A stretch of DNA of 64,000 nucleotides from assembly GCA_023014335.1 (NCBI GenBank), contig JAECYW010000013.1, forward strand, positions 186,001 through 250,000. Reading direction: 5' to 3'. A program made the position numbers and the translations under genes. Shown here piece after piece: positions 7,540 to 55,315 of the stretch. How positions within the stretch are numbered: the stretch's first letter is position 1; every line of letters starts with the position of its first letter. This DNA is from Galerina marginata (Eukaryota > Basidiomycota > Agaricomycetes > Agaricales > Galerinaceae). The notes beneath the pieces were generated by a model, which saw nothing but the letters and a program-made list of their open reading frames with translations, was not told where the DNA came from and searched no databases.

Positions 7540-8856
7540 ATGTGCGCTGTACTCGATCCCTCTGTTGAGGACGCTGTCCGACAAACTTTTTACATTATGC
7601 ATCATACGACTCCCGAGTCCCCGCATGATAGTCGTTCCGTTGTTTCCTTGTGGAACGGGTTGATTGACGCGGCCAAGTTCATTGTATGTTGCATTTCTCT
7701 ATCAATCCTATTTATCTGAATATTAAACTGATCTTCTGCGACCCCTTCATCTAGTCGGGTTGGGTCGAACACCCTCAACTTGTCCAAGACGCGGGCAAGA
7801 CCGCTCGGGACATCCCCTTCGGTATTCGTCGTGCCTTCCAGGACTACATGAAGGCATATCCTGGCAAGTTCCAAGAGTACCCTCAAGAATACCGCGCCAT
7901 CGCACGGCTGTGCAGGTGTATTCAAGAACTTCGCGAGAAAACCGCAGGTCGTGTACGTCCCTGTGCTGTTTTCTGTCTTTAAACACCTTTATTAACATCC
8001 CGTCTGATCTTTAGGGTTCAAAGCAAGGTAGTCATTCTGGCCGGGGCCGAGCTGACAATCAGGAAGACGATCAGGTACGTTGGCCCGCGTCGCACCGACC
8101 TTTTAAAACCTTACTTATTTTCCTATATCCAATTCAGGAGGACACTGAGGAGGTAAGGATACGTCTTAGCCGTCCTTTTGTTACAGGGTTTTTAACTCGG
8201 GCATTCAAGGCTATGGTTGTGGATGACGAGGGGGGGCCTAGCAGTAGCCAAGCTCCTGCCGCTCCCCAAGCACCTACCGCGCCCGCTGCCAATCGCGTTC
8301 TTCGCTTTAAGAAGAAACCCACTCCAGCCAAGGTACGCGTGCCCTCGTCTTCCAAGAGCAAGAAACCTAAGCCTGGAATTGTCCCGAAAGCCTGTGGAGA
8401 AGCGTGCAGACGTAAGTTCAGCTTAACCACTCCATTTTCTGGTTTTATTTCTTAATCTGTTATCTTAGACCACCAGGTCGTCTTCTGTACCAGTCCCCCC
8501 CATCAACAAGCGGGCGAGGCCGAACCATCCGTCCCCCGACGGTATGTATTTATCCTGTCTGTTGCTTTTTCCTTGTCTTGACCAAGTGTTCTCTTTCTCT
8601 AGGGGCTCCTTCTGAGCTTCCCGCCGGGTCGCTCCAGGAGGCTCTTGAGATAGCGGCTTCCCCTTCTATTCCGTCGGATGTGGAAGGTATCGACAGACAG
8701 ATTAATATGCTGAGTGGAGATTTAAGTGATTACAACTATCAAATTGCTTATAATCTCCGCCAACGTGAATCTGTTCTGACTGAAATTGCGAAACTCAAAG
8801 AAGCTCGATCTAGTCTGGACGCCCCTGCAGAAGCCGATGAGGAACTTGATGTTTAA
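7540..8856 (+). CDS. Unknown eight-exon protein with C-terminal coiled coil
   Basis: The model is exons 7540-7683, 7755-7952, 8015-8074, 8138-8152, 8210-8332, 8391-8411, 8469-8541 and 8603-8856, giving 295 residues. All junctions are GT-AG and keep frame. The 15 nt and 21 nt exons are the least certain calls. The first 110 residues look like a folded helical domain (starts MCAVLDPS). Next come acidic and Ala/Pro/Ser-rich linkers with basic KKKP- and KSKKPK-like patches. The end is a coiled coil around DIQINML-like and LRQRESVLTEIAKL heptads, ending EELDV. I do not recognise the family. It is convergent with, and only about 105 bp from, the retroelement integrase. It may be a cargo or antisense gene of that element, or an independent orphan gene. 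Confidence 0.55.
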
Positions 8857-10500: not shown

Positions 10501-10506
10501 AAAAGT

Positions 10507-10578
10507 GACCAGACTGGGAATTGAACCCAGGACCTTCTGGACATATACCAAATGCTCTGCCAACTGAGCTATCCGGCC
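10507..10578 (-). tRNA. tRNA-like gene, apparent anticodon UAU, atypical loop
   Basis: The reverse complement folds into a complete 72 nt cloverleaf. A 7 bp acceptor stem pairs GGCCGGA with TCTGGTC, including two G-T wobbles. The D arm has A14, G18, G19 and A21. The 5 bp anticodon stem pairs TTTGG with CCAGA. A five-base variable loop and a T arm with loop TTCAATT follow. An A is at the discriminator position, and TTTT (10504-10501) follows as a Pol III terminator. The anticodon loop reads TATATGT, which puts TAT (Ile) at 34-36 but A rather than the nearly universal T at 33. It may therefore be a tRNA pseudogene or a tRNA-derived SINE head. It lies inside the retroelement pol region. Confidence 0.6.
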
Positions 10579-44141: not shown

Positions 44142-45693
44142 TCAAACTTTAAGCAATGTCTCTTCCCCTTCTAGAATTAAGTTGTTCTCCTGTTCACTCT
44201 CCAAGGCATTCAAAAGAGCGTCAACATTAGGGGATACAACAAATTGTTTGTTGACTTCGCCTAGAACAATTAATTGTTTATCCGCCTTGTTCAGGTGAAC
44301 GGCTTGTTGCAGGAAAGCGGGTTGCGTCGCAGCATTGACCTAGACCCAGTGAGGACAAAAAGTCGATAGAAAGAGAAGTTAGCCACACATACATCGAGTA
44401 ACATGCCATTCGTCAGCCTGATTTTAACGGCGCCACTTCTGTAAACTTCAAGTTGGCCTATAACACCATCAATGGGTCCAGTCTTTTTAGGCTCTACCGG
44501 TGCGGCTGAAGGGGTTCTTGAAGTACTTGGAGTAAGATCTGGTTTAACGTCTGGAGCAAATGATACTTTTTTCCCTAATTGTACGGCATCAGGCACTTGG
44601 TCAATGTCCATTGCAGTGTCTTTTTTCAAAGTGAATTCAGGGAAAGGGGCCGGGAACTGAAAGAAATAAAGCCTTTCCTCTCGTATAGATTCGTCCTTTA
44701 TTAACAATAAGTAAGGAAAGAGAATGAGGAAATGCAACTTACCGAGTCCATTATGGTTTGGGTCGCAAAATCTTCGATGATGTCCTCCAACTCTTCCTCT
44801 TCTTCGCTTTCGCTAAGGTTGACTGCATTGCTTAAATTTACGTCACCTATCATAGTAAATTTCATGTCTTAGAGGTTGAAACCATGTAGGAAAGGAATAA
44901 AACCGCACCAAGATCGTCGAGTTTTTCTTCCTTCTTTACCTTCTTCGCGTTCTGACGCTCTTTGCGTAGAGTTTCCGGCGCCATCCAATCCATCTGGCGG
45001 ACGTTTTCCATGTCTATGATCTCGACACCTTCATCGGGATCAGAATAGACCTCCTCATCTTCCGTCTTAACGACACCGTTTTTTAGGTTTCCGTCTTTCC
45101 TCAGTGATGAAGGGGTATATTCCGAGAGATTGTTCCCAATGCTGGAGGACGTGCCTTCCGTTGGCACACTAGGCACGAAGTTTGAACGGGGGGTAGACCG
45201 GCGCGTGCTGCTACCAGCCATAGCTGGGCCCATGGCGAAAGGTCCGCTGGCAGTCATTTCAATAACAGGACCAGGACCTCCCCCTCGACCCCTGCCTCTG
45301 GCATCTCCACGGCCGCGTCCCCGACCGCGACCTCGATCGCTTTGTGAAGCAGAAGGCACAGCAGCCGCAGTGGGTTCCTGGTGAGATTTGAAAAGTTGCC
45401 CATTGGAAACAGTTCCACAACTATAAACGTAGTTTACGAACCGGTTTAACATCCCTGAATCCGTCAAATAAGCATCTACATTTCCAGCAAGAAAATGAAC
45501 ACATACTCCTTCTTTCTTCGTTGAGGAAGGGTCGGCACAAACTTGAGCTTTTGGGTTCCCTGTCTAGTTACATCGCTCTGCTTTTTCGCAAGACTGCCAA
45601 TAGCTTTTGGGGCAGGTGTACTAGGCGAAGGATCTGGTAGTGGTGGTAAGTAGCCAATGGAATGGGGGAGAGGTCAGATTTCTGACCGGTCAT
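44142..45693 (-). CDS. RPC53: RNA polymerase III subunit Rpc53 (RPC4)
   Basis: Exons 45693-45687, 45633-45507, 45454-45442, 45377-44909, 44846-44743, 44656-44393 and 44339-44142 give 393 residues. It pairs with Rpc37 in the Pol III TFIIF-like module that acts in initiation and termination. The N-terminal half is low-complexity, with Arg/Gly repeats (RGRGRGRGDARGRG) and Lys/Glu stretches. The C-terminal RPC4 domain is conserved: GQLEVYRSGAVKIRLTNG, LLDV, AATQPAFLQQAV, KQLIVLGEVNKQFVVSPN, VDALL. Exons 1 (7 nt) and 3 (13 nt) are tiny but required to keep frame. The start codon is now only 56 bp from an 8.4 kb transposon. Confidence 0.93.
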
Positions 45694-45749
45694 GATTCCT
45701 GGTTCGAAGTCGGGATCAAAAGAGGAAATATCACACGTTTGTTTTCTGT

Positions 45750-46960
45750 CACTGCTGGCACGGGACTATTTCAAAGTAGCTAAAATCCGAGTAAAATAGT
45801 ATCTAGCTTGTTAAAATTTTAGACGCTTTTTCTTCTCCGTGAAATGTCCATAAAATGTCAAATATTTCGGCAGGTAAGGGATACAAAAAGGAAAATACAT
45901 ATTGTCAATTTTAGGCGAGGTAAAAAGATTCATTTGACACAAGTCTATTTCTACGTGAGATTCTCCTTAAATGTTTCATTCTGTCGAAATTTTCAGCCTT
46001 CACATATTTTAAATTTCCCTGAATAAGAAAAGAGAACAAAAGACAAAGTTGATACATTTTTTTCAATATGATAGAATGCAAACTTTATCCAAAAAAATTA
46101 GATTGTCTAAAATATTTCTTAAATGTAAGACTGTACGGAAAAGAAAATGTATCGCCCCACGTGTACCCCACCAATCGGGTAGTGGAGACAGTCGACAAGT
46201 AGTGTACACACAGAGAAACTCTGGCAGTGCCAGCCCCATACTCCCCTGGTGCACTCGCGATGTGCAGTCGCAATCGCCACGGCCGAAAAAGAGTGTGAGA
46301 GTGAGGCGGGAGTTGTGAACGACGAAAGCAACCGAGACTCCGAGAGCGAAGTATCGAGAATCGAGATAATAGGACGAGCCTTGGAAACTAAACTGGTCGT
46401 GCAATTGACAGGAGATATCAGAGTGGTTTAAATAGCATAAATACGTCGGAATTTGAAGTAAAAAAGCGAAAGGAAGACGAGGGGAAGTGGACAATAAAAA
46501 TTCGAATAAGGAAATAAAAATGCATCGAAATGAGTCAGAGAGTTGGGGAGGGTGAAAGAGAATGAAGAATGAAGCACTTAACAATAAGAAATAGGGTTCG
46601 TGAGAGGTGAAACAATTGCCTTAATTCTGTGAAATAAAATACAGTGGGAGGTTGAGGCGATTTATCCCGGCGATGCACAATGGTCCCGGACTGACGAGAT
46701 GTCAGGTTGGAAGTAAATGTCAGATACAGCGAACAATGTGAAATTGAGCTGAAAAATGGCGCGCAATGGATGGGGGAATGGATTTATTGGTCGTCAGGCT
46801 GAGTAGTCGTCAGGCTGAGTAGTCGTCAGGCTGAGTCGTTTGCGGAATGGGCTCCGGTAGTATGCGCTGTGGCTAGCCTAAAAGATGTGAAACGCTGGAT
46901 GCACGCCTAACGTGTGCAGTCAGTAAAATCTGAGGATAGAGCGCACAGAGATTCGTGACA
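45750..46960 (+). repeat. Left inverted arm of the 8.4 kb element
   Basis: Matches the reverse complement of about 53070-54156. Closest matches are 45750-46320 (long runs of identity by eye, with conserved short open frames in both arms). Agreement declines through 46320-46960, where small indels accumulate. The arm contains a triple tandem of GTCGTCAGGCTGAGTA near 46793-46840 that the right arm lacks. Confidence 0.8.
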
Positions 46961-46999
46961 GTTCGGAAATTTGAGGACAAGGCAGATTCCAAACCGTGC

Positions 47000-49110
47000 A
47001 TTGGGAAACCAGGGCATGGTTGGAGATAACTTAGGACTGAGGGCAAACTGAGGGAGAATAATAATGACTCGTCGGGCTGACAAACAAAATGGATGATTAT
47101 GTCAAACAACCACAAAGCCACTTTGGCACTTTCCACTTTCCACTTCGACAATATTGCGAGTCCTTCCGTAAACAGGTGAGCAATAGCCCATATTGTCTTC
47201 AAACCTAAATTCACTCCGTTTCCAGTCCACCTCGAACTCGCGACTCGCCGCTAGGACGTCAACTTGGACGCCCCACCGCCCAATTCGCGATTACTTCCAT
47301 CTGTCCCCATCACCCCCACCGGCTCTCGCTCTTGCTTGCAGCACCGTCTGCTGTCCCGCGATCTCAAATTCCTGCATTCGCCGTCGTCGATGTCACCGCC
47401 GCAGCACCCCCTCCTTGTTTCTTTGTTCGTATGTTTAATCGCTAGTGCCGCAGCTGCAGGAGGACATGGCTTGCGAGCCGTTCGAAGTAAATAGGTGAGG
47501 AATAGTTTTTATTGGGGTCATATCCGTACTCACCTCGTTTCCAGCCTCCTTAACAACACCACCTACCCTTGTTCATTCATTTGACGGCTGGCGCCGCAGC
47601 CGCGGGATGGCATGACTTGCAGATTCGGGTCTGGGTTTTAGGTCGTGACCCGAGAGGAACTTTGAGTCGGAGGAGAAGGGGAGTGGGGTGAGGAGGCAAC
47701 ATCACCCCTCCCGCTTACGCGCTTGCTGGCGACTCTCTTTGCCTCCCGACTTCCTGCAGTCGTCGGTGCTCTCGCTGCCCATCGTCGCCCGGCATCGTTA
47801 CCCCTACCCCCCTCCCCTCGTTTGTTTGGTCATTTGCTTGGTTTGGGGCCACGGGAGGGGGTGGGGGTGCATACTCGAAGAGCATTACGACACGGGCAGG
47901 CATTAGCTACGCAGCGCATGCTAGATGAGGAAGAGGAGGACGTACCGGAGCATGCACCCCCCCCCCCTGTGCGACGACCCCATCGTCGTCGTTGTACTTC
48001 GTCGTCGTCGTCGTCCACCTCCTCCTTGTATTTGCCGCGCCCTGGGTCGTGGGTCAAGTCAGCCGGTGCCTGCGTGCGCCTGTTCGGGAAGACGAAGACG
48101 AAGAAGGGCCTACAACGTCAGCAGCATCTCGGAAATCTGCGGGGGCTTTCAAGACGAGTCGCGGGAGGTGGAGGGCAGGAGGGTGGAAGTCAAGGGCGGA
48201 AGTACCGAGACCACTGCCATTTCACAGACAGCGGTCTCGACTATTTCCAGTCGCCGCCGCCGTCGTCGTTTGCTTTGCGAAGTGGCGTGGGCATTGGGGC
48301 GCGGGAGGGGAGAAAGAGGAAGGAGGGGCTGCGGGATGGGAGACACGGGCCAGGGCAAAGGCGACGGCGAGGGTGTAGGAGGAGAGGCAAAGCGGAAGTG
48401 CCAACGAGACGGGAGGGTGCTGCAGATGGACAAAGGCGAAGGAAAGGGTGCCCGTGCAGGATGAGATCGATGAGAGTTTGTCAGACACAGCGCGGATGAC
48501 GAGAGGAGGGGAATACGTACCTGCTTTCGAGCAGGGCGGATGCGTACCTCTCCTTCGACGAGCGCCATCGCTAGTTCGCTCTAAGCCGGCCTGGAATTGT
48601 GGAGTACGACCCCGCTGCTCAAAGACGGGTCAGGAACTTGCAGAAGAAACCCTCAACGAACCAGAACTGACCTAGTGACCCTCCATCCTCTACTCCTCCT
48701 CTCCTCCTTCTAACCCAGCCATAGAACAGGGACATATGATGGACACCCGCCCTCCGCGCCAGCCTCTTCTTCGAGATTCGCCCGTACCCGCATTTCACCA
48801 CTCTGGACCTCCGCACCTCTCTCCCCAACCAACCCAAGCTGCCGAACATATGAAAGACAGGCGAGCCCGCGATATTGAGAAGCAACGACGACAACAACAG
48901 CGACAACTTCTGAAGACACTGCTGAAAGTAATCGAGCCTGCCGTCCGACCATTGTTGATGGTACTCGCAGGTGCGCTCCAACGAGTTGGGTTTGCTTTGG
49001 AGCCGCAGGCGCAGAAGCAGAAGCAGGCGCAGGGTGGAAGAGAATGAGCGAGTGGAAGGGGAGGGGTTACACCGAAAATAAGTTATAAGTGCATTGATTG
49101 AACTTGGAAT
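47000..49110. other. GC-rich interior of the 8.4 kb element, no gene recognised
   Basis: 47200-49050 is GC-rich with CGTCGTCGT simple repeats (47985-48025), poly-C, and many overlapping open frames on both strands. The longest, 47723-48499 plus, is an Arg/Gly-rich random-looking translation. Parts (about 47380-48050) are the inverted counterpart of about 50290-50670. No transposase motif was seen, so the frames are treated as composition artefacts or highly decayed coding DNA. Confidence 0.4.
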
Positions 49111-49120
49111 ATTAAATTTA

Positions 49121-49667
49121 CAGGGTTTCCAGAAATCCTTGAGAATTCGTGAAATTTTTTTTCACGTCACGATTTCACCTTGAGCTGGATTATCACCAAA
49201 TTAGGAAATTTCCTGCATGGCTCGTAATTCACCTTTCTTCGCCGTTCTAAAGAGATATAAGCTGTATTTCCGAACAAAAATGCCTTTGTATGAATCATTA
49301 AAAACTTTGAAGCCTTTCTGCTGATTTATTTGACGTCTTTGCCTTGTTGTAGGCTTCAGTTATTGGAAATACGAGTTCTTCAGCAGGAGCAGGCGGTCCG
49401 GCGCCGGTGGTACACATAAATTGGCACATGGGGGTAATTGTACGGTACAGCTGTCCCCTAATACATGGTAACTCTTGAAATCAATATTAAATTGCATTTA
49501 AGAACCGTTATGCAAAATTATAGCGGGCGTGAACACCAAAAATACGAAGGAACTATGGAATTCAAGAAGGCATAGAAAATTTCCTAATTTAGTGATAATT
49601 GAGCCCAAGGCGAAATCGTGACGTGAAAAAAAATTTCACGAATTCTCAAGGATTTCTGGAAACCCTG
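49121..49667. mobile_element. MITE, 547 bp, about 95 bp TIRs, TA duplication
   Basis: The left end CAGGGTTTCCAGAAATCCTT is repeated in inverse at the right end (reverse complement of 49648-49667). Similarity extends about 95 bp with a few mismatches. TA directly flanks both ends (49119-49120 and 49668-49669). The interior is AT-rich and non-coding. It fits a Tc1/mariner-derived miniature element and is nested inside the 8.4 kb transposon. Confidence 0.88.
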
Positions 49668-50671
49668 TAACAATGCGAAAACAATTTTCGGCGGTCGTAT
49701 ATCCTACATATTTGTAAAGTTCTATGTAATACAAATCTAGTGAAATGTAAAAGATTGTCACGGTCTTCACTGTCACAACTTACTAACGCGATTTATAAAG
49801 AATCTGTTGGGATGTTAAGACGGCTTGAGAGGATCGTCGAACAGGTCCTGAAGGAGGGGGGGAAGGGGATGATTGTCGAGTGGAAAGTGCCCAAGTGCCT
49901 TGGCAATGGCTATTGTTGGCGATAGCCCCGAATTATATTTGTGATTGTTTACTTCGTCATCCACTTCAGTCAAGGTTTTGAGATTCGAACTCAGATTATC
50001 CCAACACCAACACCCTCTCTAGACCGGTAACCGTTCGGAGAATGAGGAGAGGATGGAGAGTCCTCGATTCTCCGAGGACTTCCCATCCTCACTCATTCGA
50101 CGGATGGTTACGAGCCTACACCCTCTCTTGATCGGCTCACTACATATTATTGTCTCAGAGTCACAATTCTCTGACCGTGCCCTGGTTTCCCAATGCACGG
50201 CTTAGAATCCTCCTTGTCCTCAGAACTCAAACATCAAGTTTCCTACTGTTTCTAGGATGCTATAGGGATCCTGCGTCTTTGGATCACTACATTGATGGCC
50301 GCGAATACGAGAAGGAGGAGGACGAGGGCAAGGAAGTACGAAGGACGAATAGGTCTTCGCACGCGGAGGGTGTGTACGACGGTGCGTCCTCCCCCTCCCC
50401 TCTTCTCGTGTGGGCCGCGTAGCTAACACCCGCCCTTGTCGTAGTGCTCCTCTTCGAGCGTGCTGCGGGCGACGGCGATAGGCTGCGGGAAGTCCGCGAG
50501 TTCGATCGACTGGAAAGCAGGTGGGCAAGGGTTTGAAGACTCAATATGAACTGTCCCTCACCTGTTTACTTGGAAAGGTTCGCGACGAAGAGGGGGTGCA
50601 GCGGTGACGACGTCAACGTTGACGACTGCAGGAATTCGAGAACCGGTGGGGTGATGTTGGGAGGGCACGCC

Positions 50672-50823
50672 TGTAGACAAGCGGAGCAGGGAGACGAGAC
50701 ACGCGGGCAGTGCGAATGGATTGAGCGATAGAGACGACGAGTACAGAGTGACTACGTATATACGAGGAGGCGTGACCGTGGCCGGAAACCACCGAGGTCG
50801 TCACCACAGGACTAAGTCCAACA
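50672..50823 (-). repeat. 3' LTR (152 bp)
   Basis: The plus strand runs TGTAGACAAG ... GTCCAACA. It is identical by eye to 52840-52991. On the minus strand it is the 3' LTR, preceded by G-rich tract ATGGGGGTG. Confidence 0.88.
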
Positions 50824-51002
50824 CACCCCCATGACTACCGAGGGCAGAAAAAGGACAGAGGGAAAGCGAAAGACACCCCCATAAAAAGGAGGGAAAAAGG
50901 GCCAGTGCTAGCAGAGCACCCCCATACACATATGAAGTTAATAACAACAAAATTAACAATGAAATCAGCATAAGGGTGAAAGGAGGGTGAAAGCACCCCC
51001 AT
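50824..51002 (-). repeat. Four G-rich ATGGGGGTG motifs (polypurine-tract-like)
   Basis: CACCCCCAT on the plus strand occurs at 50824-50832, 50874-50882, 50917-50925 and 50994-51002. The first directly abuts the 3' LTR, where the plus-strand primer (polypurine tract) belongs. The others repeat it upstream between short unrelated AT-rich spacers. Confidence 0.6.
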
Positions 51003-51018
51003 GCAAAGAAGATATACT

Positions 51019-52098
51019 CTAGGGGGGATGGTCAAAAATAAGGAAGTGGTTGAAAAGAACAGCAAGGCGTGGTAAGAGGTCTAATCCCAAATTTGAATGT
51101 TGAAGGGAAGAAATGGCAGGGGAGGAAAGAGAAGAGGCAAGATACCAAGAAAGCGGAGGAAGATAGGTTGAATTTAATGATAGAAGTTCAAAGGAATTAG
51201 ACAATGGGATTTGAGGAGAACATATTTTGGGTAGTGGAGGATGTTCAGAAAGCGAAATTGGAAGTGGAGGTAAAAGAGCTGCAGAGGGAATTGAAGTAGA
51301 AGTAGAAACAACACTAGAAGCTAACAAAGAAAGGGGGCCAAGTAAAGGAGAATGCTGGGATGGAGGCGAGGCAGAAGGTGATTGACTGATTGACAATGAC
51401 ATCGATTGTGGAGGTAATGGTAAGAATTCAGATGAAATAAAAGGGTTTGAAGGAAGCGGAGAGTGTGAAACCGGAAACGAGGTCGTATTAACAGAATGCG
51501 GATTAAAAGAGAGGCCAGAAAATGGTCGAGAGAACGGAGCATGCAAAGAAAACGGCGGCATTGCGGCTGGTTGTATGCCAGACGCTTCGACAGGGATTTG
51601 AAAATTGAGGACAAAATGACCACCATCTCGTGCAAATGGAACATACTTCGGCAGTCGAGGTTCGGCGAGACGATCTTTGTGGGCGTAGATCATCCTAGGG
51701 GTACGACCAGCAAGCATGATTTGTTTCCCTTGAGAGATTGCCTTCGCGCATGAGAAAAAATGGTAAGGAGAGGATGGAACATGCCAACAGTCCCGGAGCC
51801 GGAAAACAATTGACGTTCCACCCGCAAAAGTACGAATATGCACGTCGCCGTAGCCTTCAACAAGAATATCATTACCGAAGGTTGTCCGATGCAGTTTGCG
51901 AGATGGTGTGTAGGTTGCAAAGAGAGTGCGGTCGTTGACTACGTGCGAAGGGAGGGACAGGTCGACGACAAGATATTGAGGTGCCGTACGTGCTGTTCCA
52001 GCCAGAGGTGGGTTCTCTTGAACTTTGCGACGAGATGATGGTGCCTTAGGCTCCGGTTTGGTGGCCAGAGATTTTGTTGATAATCGTTTGGACGGCAT
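51019..52098 (-). CDS. Copia-type protease-like protein, active site lost
   Basis: 359 residues from the first in-frame ATG (MPSKRLSTKS). After a basic, Pro-rich N-terminus comes a stretch with the layout of the copia polyprotein around its aspartic protease: YLVVDLSLPSHVVNDRTLF, YTPSRKLHRTTFGND, VEGYGDVHI, FRLRDCWHVPSSPYHFFS, AISQGKQIML. In active copia proteases the first segment carries D-S-G-A; here the residues are D-L-S-L, so catalysis is unlikely. The C-terminal half is a Ser/Pro/Leu-rich low-complexity tail. No gag zinc knuckle was found. It is probably the single product of this non-autonomous element, possibly a structural or regulatory derivative. Family assignment is by layout only. 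Confidence 0.6.
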   Translation of the reverse strand: MPSKRLSTKSLATKPEPKAPSSRRKVQENPPLAGTARTAPQYLVVDLSLPSHVVNDRTLFATYTPSRKLHRTTFGNDILVEGYGDVHIRTFAGGTSIVFRLRDCWHVPSSPYHFFSCAKAISQGKQIMLAGRTPRMIYAHKDRLAEPRLPKYVPFARDGGHFVLNFQIPVEASGIQPAAMPPFSLHAPFSRPFSGLSFNPHSVNTTSFPVSHSPLPSNPFISSEFLPLPPQSMSLSISQSPSASPPSQHSPLLGPLSLLASSVVSTSTSIPSAALLPPLPISLSEHPPLPKICSPQIPLSNSFELLSLNSTYLPPLSWYLASSLSSPAISSLQHSNLGLDLLPRLAVLFNHFLIFDHPP

Positions 52099-52827
52099 AG
52101 CTAAAGGAATGGGGCGAGGTTGATGAAATTCAGACAGAAGAAAGTGGAATATATGCGCGTAAACAATAGAAACAAGAGAAAATTTGTGTTTGCGAATGCG
52201 AGGGAAAAACAAAATGGTCAAAAATGTTTGGTATGGATGAATGTATGCACCGGAAATACAGCAGGAAACTGCAAAGGCGCGAAAGAGGCAAAGTTTGTGG
52301 GGGGAGAAAGGCGAAGCGACAGAGATGTGACCAACGGAATGGCACAGAGTCGATGATTACGGTTGGCCCTTAGCAACCCGACTGCGTGAAAGCAGGAATT
52401 TGAAGAGGTGGTGCGCTCCTCGATTGCGAGATTGCGGTTTGCGCCCAGAACCCGACTGCAGATGCAGGAATGGAAGAAAAAGATTACGGTCGATGAGAGA
52501 ATCAACCCGACTGCACTTCTGAAAGGCAGGAGCACGACGAAAGTACGGGAATGAGGCCGCAGGGTCGGCAAGTGATAAGATAAGGTCGGTACGCTTCTCG
52601 GATGATGGTGAGATTGCGGTTTTGCGTCCAAAACCCGATTGCAAATGCAAGGAAGTTGAATAATTACGGTCGACAAAGAAGTCAACCCGACTGCGCTGTG
52701 GAAGGCAGGAGTGCACGACGAAGATACAGGAAAACGGTGCTGCAAGGTCGGCAAAAGTGAAAGCTGTCAAGGTCCAGAAGACGCGTAGATGCGCGTTGAA
52801 AAAATCGTCTATGCTGTAGTCGCGTCG

Positions 52828-52839
52828 GGGCCCATAACC
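52828..52839 (-). other. Primer-binding site, initiator tRNA-Met half
   Basis: Directly inside the 5' LTR. On the plus strand the 12 bases read GGGCCCATAACC, close to the anticodon stem-loop of initiator tRNA-Met (GGGCUCAUAACC in yeast). Annealing to that internal tRNA half, rather than to its 3' end, is known in Drosophila copia and yeast Ty5. Confidence 0.75.
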
Positions 52840-52991
52840 TGTAGACAAGCGGAGCAGGGAGACGAGACACGCGGGCAGTGCGAATGGATTGAGCGATAGA
52901 GACGACGAGTACAGAGTGACTACGTATATACGAGGAGGCGTGACCGTGGCCGGAAACCACCGAGGTCGTCACCACAGGACTAAGTCCAACA
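52840..52991 (-). repeat. 5' LTR (152 bp)
   Basis: The identical partner of 50672-50823. On the minus strand it starts TGTTGGACTTAGTCC and ends CTTGTCTACA. It should hold the element promoter. No clear TATA box was noted beyond TATATACG on the plus strand near 52925. Confidence 0.88.
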
Positions 52992-53069
52992 ACGCCGGCG
53001 CCGAGGTCTTTGGGCTGCCTGTAGAGCTCCGTGAGGACGTAGATGGCGGCTTGGCCGAGGGCGATATGC

Positions 53070-54156
53070 GTCGGCAATCTCTGTGCGCTCTATCCTCAGA
53101 TTGTACCGACTGCACATGTTAGGCACGTCCCGTGTTTCATGCGTTTTGGGCTGGCTACAGCGGATCGCGTTCTACCGGAGCCCATTTCGAAAACGACTGA
53201 GCTAAGCTGACGACGGATAAATCCATTCCCCCATCTCGCGTCGCCTTGACAAATCGCCTCAAACTCCCACTGTAATTTATTTTACAGAGTTAAGACAGTC
53301 GTTTCACTCACGGACCCTGTTTCTTATTGTTAAGTTCTTCATTCTTCATTCTCTTTCACCTCTCCCCAACTCTCTGACTCATTTCAATGCATTTTCATTT
53401 CCTTATTCGATTTTTTTGTTCTCCACTTCCCCTCCTCTTCCTTTCACATTTGTTCTTCAAATTCCGATGTATTTACACTATTTAAATCCCCCTGTATCGT
53501 CGTCTACCTCCGGTCAATTGCACTCCCAGATTAACCTCCAAAAACTCGTCCAATTATCTCGATCCTTTGCTCTCGGTTGTCTTTGTTGTTTGCATCACCT
53601 GCCCCGGCTCTCACTTTTTTCGGCCGTGGCGATTGCGACTGCACATCGCGAGTGCACCAGGGGAGTATGGGGCTGGCACTGCCAGAGTTTCTCTGTGTGT
53701 ACACTACTTGTCGACTGTCTCCACTACCCGATTGGTGGGGTACACGTGGGGCGATACATTTTCTTTTCCGTACAGTCTTACATTTAAGAAATATTTTAGA
53801 CAATCTAATTTTTTTGGATAAAGTTTGCATTCTATCATATTGAAAAAAATGTATCAACTTTGTCTTTTGTTCTCTTTTCTTATTCAGGGAAATTTAAAAT
53901 ATGTGAAGGCTGAAAATTTCGACAGAATGAAACATTTAAGGAGAATCTCACGTAGAAATAGACTTGTGTCAAATGAATCTTTTTACCTCGCCTAAAATTG
54001 ACAATATGTATTTTCCTTTTTGTATCCCTTACCTGCCGAAATATTTGACATTTTATGGACATTTCACGGAGAAGAAAAAGCGTCTAAAATTTTAACAAGC
54101 TAGATACTATTTTACTCGGATTTTAGCTACTTTGAAATAGTCCCGTGCCAGCAGTG
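53070..54156 (-). repeat. Right inverted arm of the 8.4 kb element
   Basis: The reverse complement of about 45750-46960. The outer 500 bp are almost unchanged between arms, including the ATTTGACATTTTATGG and GGTACACGTGGGGCGATAC segments. The inner part has indels. Transcription through both arms would give a long hairpin RNA. Confidence 0.8.
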
Positions 54157-54215
54157 TGTTTGAAAACGACAGTCATTGATCGTTATCTTTATATCTATTT
54201 TCAACTTCTACCACC
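54157..54215 (+). promoter_or_regulatory. HPT1: Remnant of the RPC53/HPT1 divergent promoter
   Basis: Only 59 bp lie between the transposon end and the HPT1 ATG, and 56 bp (45694-45749) between the other end and the RPC53 ATG. The ancestral intergenic region was therefore about 112 bp after removing one TGT. It contains an AT-rich TCTTTATATCTATTTTC stretch 22-38 bp before the ATG and a good Kozak-like context CCACCATGGC. Confidence 0.6.
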
Positions 54216-55315
54216 ATGGCCAACGAAGTCCAGTACTGGCATGTCACCTACAACGATATCCACAACCTCATTCGCCAATCTACTCCGAAAATTGCCACAG
54301 AATTCAACCCTGACTTGCTAATTGCGATTGGTGTGTTCTAAAATCTATCGTTGAATTACCCACCTAAACTCTTCGATCTAGGTGGAGGGTCAGTCCTATA
54401 GCCCTGCATATCATTCATTAATTCAAGGCTGCATATATATCAACCTAGTGGATTCTTCCCTGCTCGCGTGATGGTGACTTGCCTTCGTAGATCTCTTTCT
54501 AAGTACTCAACGATGGTGCTTAAAGCGAACTTTCTTGCGTGAACAAACCCTGAACAAGAGTCTTCAAATTCAAGCAATTGGCCTCTCCCTTTACGAGCCG
54601 GTTGAAGGGGCGACTGCAGAACAGCTTGGTAATGAAGTCATTCGAACGCAGTGGCTGTGATTATTTTTTATGCATTCCTCGCGTATTTTTCTGACCTTTT
54701 TTCAAAATTAGCGGCCCAGATTCGGGAAAGCTACTACTCGGCAAGCGCAACCTGATTGTTGTGGGTGGCTCTTACATATTTTTTAAAATCATTTTCGTCA
54801 GATTTTCTAGGATGAAGTTGATGATACTCGCAAAACCTTACAGTATGTATCTTCCACCTCAGTCGACATCGTGGAAGGCCTAAACTAATTTTTATCAGCT
54901 ATGCGTTGTCTGAATTGAAAAAGGACGTCGAAACAGAACTCTTATCTTATCCTGAAGAACAACGTGAAGCGTTGCGTTCTGCAACTCATTTTGGGATTTT
55001 TGTTGTCCACAACAAATTAAAATCAAAGCTGGCTGAACTACCCTCTGGCACGCCGTATGTTCTTCTCCCTTTATGATTCTCCTATAGCTAAAACCACCAA
55101 TAGCTATTTCGCTGGGGAAGAGGTTGGGGATGTCTGGTAAAGTTTTCTAAAATGACAAACCTCCCAACCTCTAATCCCTTCTAGGTTGAACTACCCCTGG
55201 GAAGCAATGTAAGCACCTGTAGATCTTTACCTTAGTTACTATTGACCTTCTTCTCTAAAGAGATATTGGGCATCATGACATCCGCGCGGCAGCTGATAGA
55301 CAAAACGCCCAATAA
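54216..55315 (+). CDS. HPT1: Purine (hypoxanthine/xanthine-guanine) phosphoribosyltransferase
   Basis: Ten exons: 54216-54330, 54382-54388, 54449-54473, 54526-54656, 54712-54760, 54811-54842, 54899-55054, 55104-55136, 55185-55208 and 55261-55315. They give 208 residues. It salvages purine bases with PRPP. Matches to the yeast Hpt1/Xpt1 layout: YNDIHNLIRQ, DLLIAIGGGGFFPARV, IGLSLYEP, EVIRTQW, the PRPP loop VDEVDDTRKTLHYALSEL, FGIFVVHNK and YPWEA. Exon 2 is a 7 nt micro-exon, without which the GGGG run is lost. I cannot say from sequence whether hypoxanthine or xanthine is preferred. An 8.4 kb transposon begins 59 bp upstream. Confidence 0.92.

Follow-up and report, generated by a model that had tools for sequence, protein, structure and literature searches.

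The 64,000-nucleotide stretch of the Galerina marginata genome analyzed here (contig JAECYW010000013.1, positions 186,001 to 250,000; hereafter the window) carries a transposon between the start codons of 2 divergently oriented genes, RPC53 and HPT1. The element is separated by 56 bp from the start codon of RPC53 (45693, minus strand) and by 59 bp from that of HPT1 (54216, plus strand), and joining the flanks with a single TGT yields an RPC53-HPT1 gap of 112 bp. The principal features of the locus are as follows:

45687-45693, minus strand: first exon of RPC53 (RPC4), ATGACCG, followed by a 53-nt intron to about 45634; based on G. marginata RPC4 and Pfam RNA_pol_Rpc4
45747-45749, unstranded: left TGT of the target site duplication (TSD), from sequence
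45750-54156, unstranded: whole element, 8407 bp, most likely a non-autonomous CACTA, with ends CACTGCTGGCACGGGA on both sides, TSD TGT, and 3 other long and 1 short copies
54157-54159, unstranded: right TGT of the TSD, from sequence
54216-54330, plus strand: first exon of HPT1, MANEVQYWHVTYNDIHN..., its end placed by eye at a GT; solved hypoxanthine-guanine phosphoribosyltransferases match from residue 2

These coordinates bear out the original prediction of diverging start codons at 56 and 59 bp from a TGT-flanked element whose removal leaves 112 bp. The interval that it assigned to the element, 45694-54215, is correct as the whole gap from start codon to start codon, but the element proper is confined to the 8407 bp listed above, or approximately 5.4 kb once its nested insertions are subtracted.

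Both start codons are supported, that of RPC53 by the RPC4 protein of G. marginata and that of HPT1 by solved phosphoribosyltransferases. Read without splicing, the frame opened by the ATG at 45693 reaches a stop; splicing the 7-nt exon across the intron by hand gives MTDPSPSTPAPKAIGSLAKK, to be compared with the N terminus MADPSPSTPAPKAIGSLAKK of G. marginata RPC4 (MTDPSPST here, MADPSPST there), and the initial methionine precedes KAIGSLAK by 7 to 13 residues in each of the 7 relatives fetched. The hand-spliced protein matches Pfam RNA_pol_Rpc4 (1.2e-25), and its best match among 120 listed of 346 is RPC4 of G. marginata CBS 339.88, with 372 of 388 aligned positions identical, a comparison that counts the gaps introduced by hand splicing. 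The spliced first exons of HPT1 have no match in Pfam and match 5 solved-structure chains at E ≤0.1, from query residue 2 onward, the best 3 being hypoxanthine-guanine phosphoribosyltransferases (E 1.6e-19 to 1.7e-19).

In the 69.3-Mb assembly (43 contigs), each flank of the element has a single DNA match, and neither an empty allele nor a second haplotype was found there. Insertion into a compact divergent gap, as originally proposed, is thus upheld by the perfect TSD, the TSDs of other copies, the supported start codons, and the single-match flanks. We consider it highly probable that a non-autonomous CACTA (EnSpm) element inserted into the 112-bp gap, that one of its ends had been copied over the other in an ancestor, and that its outer 541 bp were homogenized by gene conversion.

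Family copies and relatives with similar ends

A search with the outer arm returned 11 places in the genome, namely both ends of 4 long copies, the present element included, and 3 pieces of one 457-bp copy. The copies are denoted C5 (the present element), C8 (6886 bp), C23 (9804 bp), C7 (9597 bp), and C42 (457 bp), and all 5 are flanked by perfect 3-bp TSDs (TGT, TTA, TTA, TCA, and CTT, respectively). They share the family ends, apart from a single change in C7, confined to one of its ends, and one or two in the ends of C42, so that the termini read CACTG..CAGTG in all 5 copies. Fungal EnSpm elements likewise have 5'-CAC..GTG-3' ends and 3-bp TSDs, according to excerpts of one report (PMC12730594). 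However, none of the 72 genome-wide matches to Transposase_21 (66 of them above the cut-off), the tnp2-type transposase of autonomous CACTA/EnSpm members, falls inside the 4 long copies, and hence the element can only be a non-autonomous member of the group, which, judged from sequence, is most likely what it is. Matches to the Plavaka transposase (PF18759; 123 of 134 candidates scored) are also absent from the 4 long copies (0 of 124), and the family is not assigned to Plavaka.

No captured gene is claimed for the interior on the basis of the frames scanned and of the interior DNA matches. In C8, the copy that has no interruptions, 10 of the 34 listed stop-to-stop frames were scanned against Pfam with no match at E 0.1, and 2 frames from the interior of the present element gave none at E 1. 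DNA searches with the interior returned 64 and 37 matches, which correspond to family copies, to repeats of the small nested insertion, and otherwise to pieces, the longest outside the family being 276 bp at 71% on contig C2. C23 and C7 are approximately 99% identical, but their nested insertions (approximately 2.2 kb and 2.0 kb, respectively) and their TSDs differ, indicating recent transposition followed by separate insertions.

CACTA/EnSpm elements carry repeated subterminal transposase-binding motifs. A search for the end pattern with up to 2 mismatches yielded 62 places, compared with 30 for the reversed control pattern. Five related elements with ends CACTGCTGGAAGGGGA, accounting for 10 of the 16 sites of that end type, were fetched, and all 5 have 3-bp TSDs. 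Three of them, 16.4 to 17.3 kb in length and with terminal repeats of 437 to 458 bp, contain one match each to Transposase_21 (PF02992, tnp2-type):

Contig C10, 820470-836938: CACTA element C10a, Transposase_21
Contig C4, 803923-821184: CACTA element C4, Transposase_21
Contig C29, 77117-93505: CACTA element C29, Transposase_21

The present element resembles these 3 in its terminal 16 bp and 3-bp TSD, but differs in its subterminal sequence and in that no transposase was found aboard. An alternative candidate for the autonomous partner, C34:927935, with a degenerate Plavaka match 9 kb away, was rejected: its terminus follows the C10a type, and no right end was located. A CACTA transposase provided in trans would have cut the element out elsewhere and pasted it into the RPC53-HPT1 gap. 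C10a contains, in addition, an 873-aa frame with no match in Pfam.

Identity of the arms and history of the ends

The arms of the element are more than plain inverted copies of each other: they are identical over the outer 541 bp and differ at position 542. Farther in, complementary pieces of 73% to 95% extend to about 46953 and 53076, with further short inverted pieces inside these limits, the shortest of which may be due to chance. The description of the element as palindromic therefore holds strictly for the outer 541 bp, whereas beyond this point the arms have diverged and the spacer contains unrelated nested insertions.

45750-46290, plus strand: outer left arm (proposed conversion tract), identical to the right arm over 541 bp
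46291-46953, plus strand: inner left arm, diverged, grouping with the left arms of C23 and C7 in trees
53065-53077, unstranded: junction common to C5 and C8, where the sequence changes from a right end of the C23/C7 type, through approximately 10 bp of filler, into an inverted left end; from copy comparison
53076-53615, minus strand: inner right arm, a diverged inverted copy of the left, its inner part grouping with the left arm of C8
53616-54156, minus strand: outer right arm, identical to the left

Comparison with the other long copies suggests that this identity is secondary. Over the first 480 alignment columns, the left and right ends differ at 43 of 472 positions in C8, 67 of 480 in C23, and 70 of 480 in C7 (9% to 15%); at these rates, and assuming independent sites, the probability of 541 identical bases is 4e-23, 5e-36, and 9e-38, respectively. 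In the tree of the outer 480 columns, the 2 arms of C5 coincide and adjoin the left arm of C8 (support 95/91). By contrast, in columns 865-1080 the right arm of C5 groups with the left arm of C8, apart from the left arms of C5, C23, and C7 and the right arm of C8 (100/100); here the right arm of C5 and the left arm of C8 are identical at 164 of 172 positions and the left arms of C5 and C23 at 166 of 171, compared with 132 of 175 between the 2 arms of C5. In columns 566-865, the arms of C8 group with each other (98/97; 243 of 245 positions alike) and the left arm of C5 with those of C23 and C7 (99/96), with the right arm of C5 standing apart. The inner-arm tree was split into these 2 ranges to separate a 264-bp identical tract that C8 has of its own, starting at its arm position 520 and thus at another place than the tract of C5; the conclusion is unchanged by the split. 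Since the arms of several copies are distinct farther in, and those of C5 are identical outside, the outer arms would have been made identical secondarily. Inter-arm gene conversion fits as the simplest cause of the identical tracts in both C5 and C8.

The right ends point to an older event. In C23 and C7, the right end matches the left over approximately 461 bp only, whereas C5 and C8 share a neighboring interior GGCGGCTTGGCCGAGGGCGAT, approximately 10 bp of filler, and then an inverted left end of about 1.1 kb. In their ancestor, the left end may have been copied over the right, lengthening the arms, the simplest route being break repair that was primed within the approximately 460-bp terminal repeat and sealed by end joining. 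In the present copy, conversion between the arms would have homogenized the outer 541 bp again. A long terminal repeat (LTR) retrotransposon, a miniature inverted-repeat transposable element (MITE) of TA type, and a small repeat have inserted into the element.

Two other origins for the long arms can be considered. A young element whose ends were born identical would account for 541 bp at 100% with no conversion at all, but it is very unlikely, given that the inner arms belong to separate clades, each of which also contains an arm of another copy (100/100), and that the ends of the other 3 long copies differ by 9% to 15% over the outer stretch. The long arms, 0.54 kb perfect and approximately 1.1 to 1.2 kb overall, set the element apart from CACTA/EnSpm elements, those of plants having short ends far below this length, and together with the palindromic plan could point to a Foldback, Galileo (P superfamily), or Mutator-type element. 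Mutator/MULE elements combine long terminal inverted repeats (TIRs) with a TSD of approximately 9 bp; the 9-bp flanks here, GTTTTCTGT and TGTTTGAAA, share no repeat longer than 3 bp. Galileo of Drosophila is alike in behavior only, the TIRs of 2 copies being >99% identical within a copy and approximately 7% divergent between copies, and its TSD is 7 bp rather than 3 bp, as stated in the excerpted source (PMC2775673). Considering also the CACTG..CAGTG ends and the similar-ended relatives with Transposase_21, an origin from any of these 3 groups appears exceedingly improbable. Homogenization has been suggested for the TIR repeats of Tetris as well (excerpts of PMC4079207).

Several points weigh against a CACTA element shaped by end copying and conversion. 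The similarity of the transposase-bearing relatives to the family is limited to roughly the last 16 bp, 2 of which differ, and no autonomous element with the subterminal sequence of the family was found among the 10 of 16 CACTGCTGGAAGGGGA sites fetched. Across 30 sites that distinguish the arm types, the identical tract of C5 has the left-type state at 20 and the right-type state at 10, interspersed along its length, so that either arm may have been the donor, perhaps in more than one conversion tract. The polarity of end copying could also be the reverse, with C23 and C7 gaining a new right end. Finally, an assembly error in the arms could be envisaged; the other copies, the TSDs, and the sharp border of the tract, rather than reads, argue against it. 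As a type, a non-autonomous CACTA element close to a gene start is unremarkable. More unusual are the identical tracts, whose positions vary from copy to copy, the arms beyond the usual CACTA length, and the placement in a 112-bp gap. Whatever the outcome for promoters, the 4 long copies record how CACTA ends lengthen and homogenize toward palindromic (foldback-like) derivatives.

Upstream DNA of RPC53 and HPT1

The arms had been proposed to provide both genes with the same upstream DNA. This is exact for the common 541 bp, spanning positions -57 to -597 relative to RPC53 and -60 to -600 relative to HPT1, but farther in the arms belong to different clades. No TATAWA is present in either 600-bp upstream stretch. 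Each arm contains one ATTGG and one CACGTG, at -482 and -470 from RPC53 and at -485 and -473 from HPT1, motif matches that alone prove nothing and serve as a lead only. By a one-base difference, CACGTG is found in both arms of C5, whereas all 6 arms of C8, C23, and C7 lack it:

46158-46163, unstranded: CACGTG, left arm; CGCGTG in the 6 arms of C8, C23, and C7
53743-53748, unstranded: CACGTG, right arm; from sequence

RPC53 is essential in yeast, and its DNA has one match in the assembly; therefore, its transcription must start in residual or in transposon sequence. That transcription of each gene starts within the residual 56 to 59 bp or the arm next to it, under upstream control by transposon sequence, has about an even chance on these sequence data, and arms acting as promoters are plausible.

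The consequences of the insertion for the 2 genes can be pictured in 3 ways. The arms may be transcriptionally neutral, the core promoters lying in the residual 56 and 59 bp, with short 5' untranslated regions and unchanged expression. In an ancestral gap of 112 bp, the core elements of both genes were already close to the start codons, and TATAWA is absent from both upstream stretches, but anything that a gene used in the other half of the gap is now 8.4 kb away; we rate neutrality at somewhat less than an even chance. An equal standing, likewise a little short of even, is given to arms that provide both genes with identical new promoters or upstream activating sequences, kept alike by conversion. 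The identity of the 541 bases preceding the 2 genes and the near-equal distances of ATTGG and of CACGTG, the latter peculiar to this copy, speak for such a role, and C8 ends approximately 180 bp before a SAICAR synthetase frame, so that gene-proximal placement is not unique. However, motif matches are weak evidence, conversion accounts for the identity with no need of selection, and 2 of the 4 long copies, C23 and C7, are not shown beside a gene start (2 frames from the flanks of C7 gave no match in Pfam). A more tentative proposal, which we regard as distinctly short of an even chance, builds on the strain-specific allele raised originally: the insertion would be a young allele, perhaps limited to a strain or nucleus, whose expression is reduced and which selection will eliminate. 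The perfect TSD, the identical LTRs of the nested retrotransposon, and a CpG observed/expected ratio of 1.00 in the arms would suit a recent insertion, and this undepleted CpG speaks against methylation-driven decay of the arms. Yet the element has gathered 3 nested insertions, unless they were carried in with it, and the flanks, matching once in the assembly, leave no empty allele to be seen.

One further possibility, which we hold to be improbable, is that one compact bidirectional promoter has been split into twin arm promoters, conversion between which would let 2 unrelated genes evolve a common regulatory input, such as CACGTG, in concert. If the arms do drive transcription, the locus would be a natural test of how much native DNA an RNA polymerase II promoter needs and of whether conversion between transposon ends locks 2 promoters together.

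At the C8 copy, the distance to the SAICAR synthetase frame (8446-8626 of the C8 locus) was taken to its first ATG, a putative start. SAICAR synthetase acts in purine synthesis and HPT1 in purine salvage, a pairing that is probably coincidental.

Nested insertions and other elements

Three nested insertions interrupt stretches that run on unbroken in other copies:

49121-49667, unstranded: TA-flanked MITE, 547 bp; contiguous without the insertion in C8; Tc1/mariner-like by its TA duplication only
50009-50114, unstranded: small repeat insertion of approximately 106 bp, with approximate borders; pieces also occur elsewhere in the genome; not present in C23, C7, or C8
50672-52991, minus strand: short LTR retrotransposon, 2320 bp, with identical 152-bp LTRs and TSD ACGCC; missing from the corresponding position of C23, C7, and C8
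51019-52098, minus strand: open reading frame of the LTR element, 359 aa; Pol_BBD (Pol polyprotein beta-barrel), E 1.2e-07, the sole recognized domain

Beside one LTR, the sequence CACCCCCAT occurs 4 times, at 50824, 50874, 50917, and 50994. Elsewhere in the window, at 10505-10578, the minus strand has a predicted tRNA-Ile (anticodon TAT).

An element of the other end type, C10b (contig C10, 1019292-1024329), is 5038 bp long, with arms of 1998 bp that are 99.8% identical and a TSD of TGG. Its similarity to the ends of C10a and C4 is limited to 450 to 520 bp. C10b thus has the same palindromic plan as the present element but is a separate palindrome, and palindrome growth may recur. On contig C23, the region 2780865-2859399 contains 5 Plavaka matches (four of 226.1 bits and one of 214.6) spaced at approximately 19.45 kb, which suggests that a Plavaka-bearing unit is repeated in tandem.

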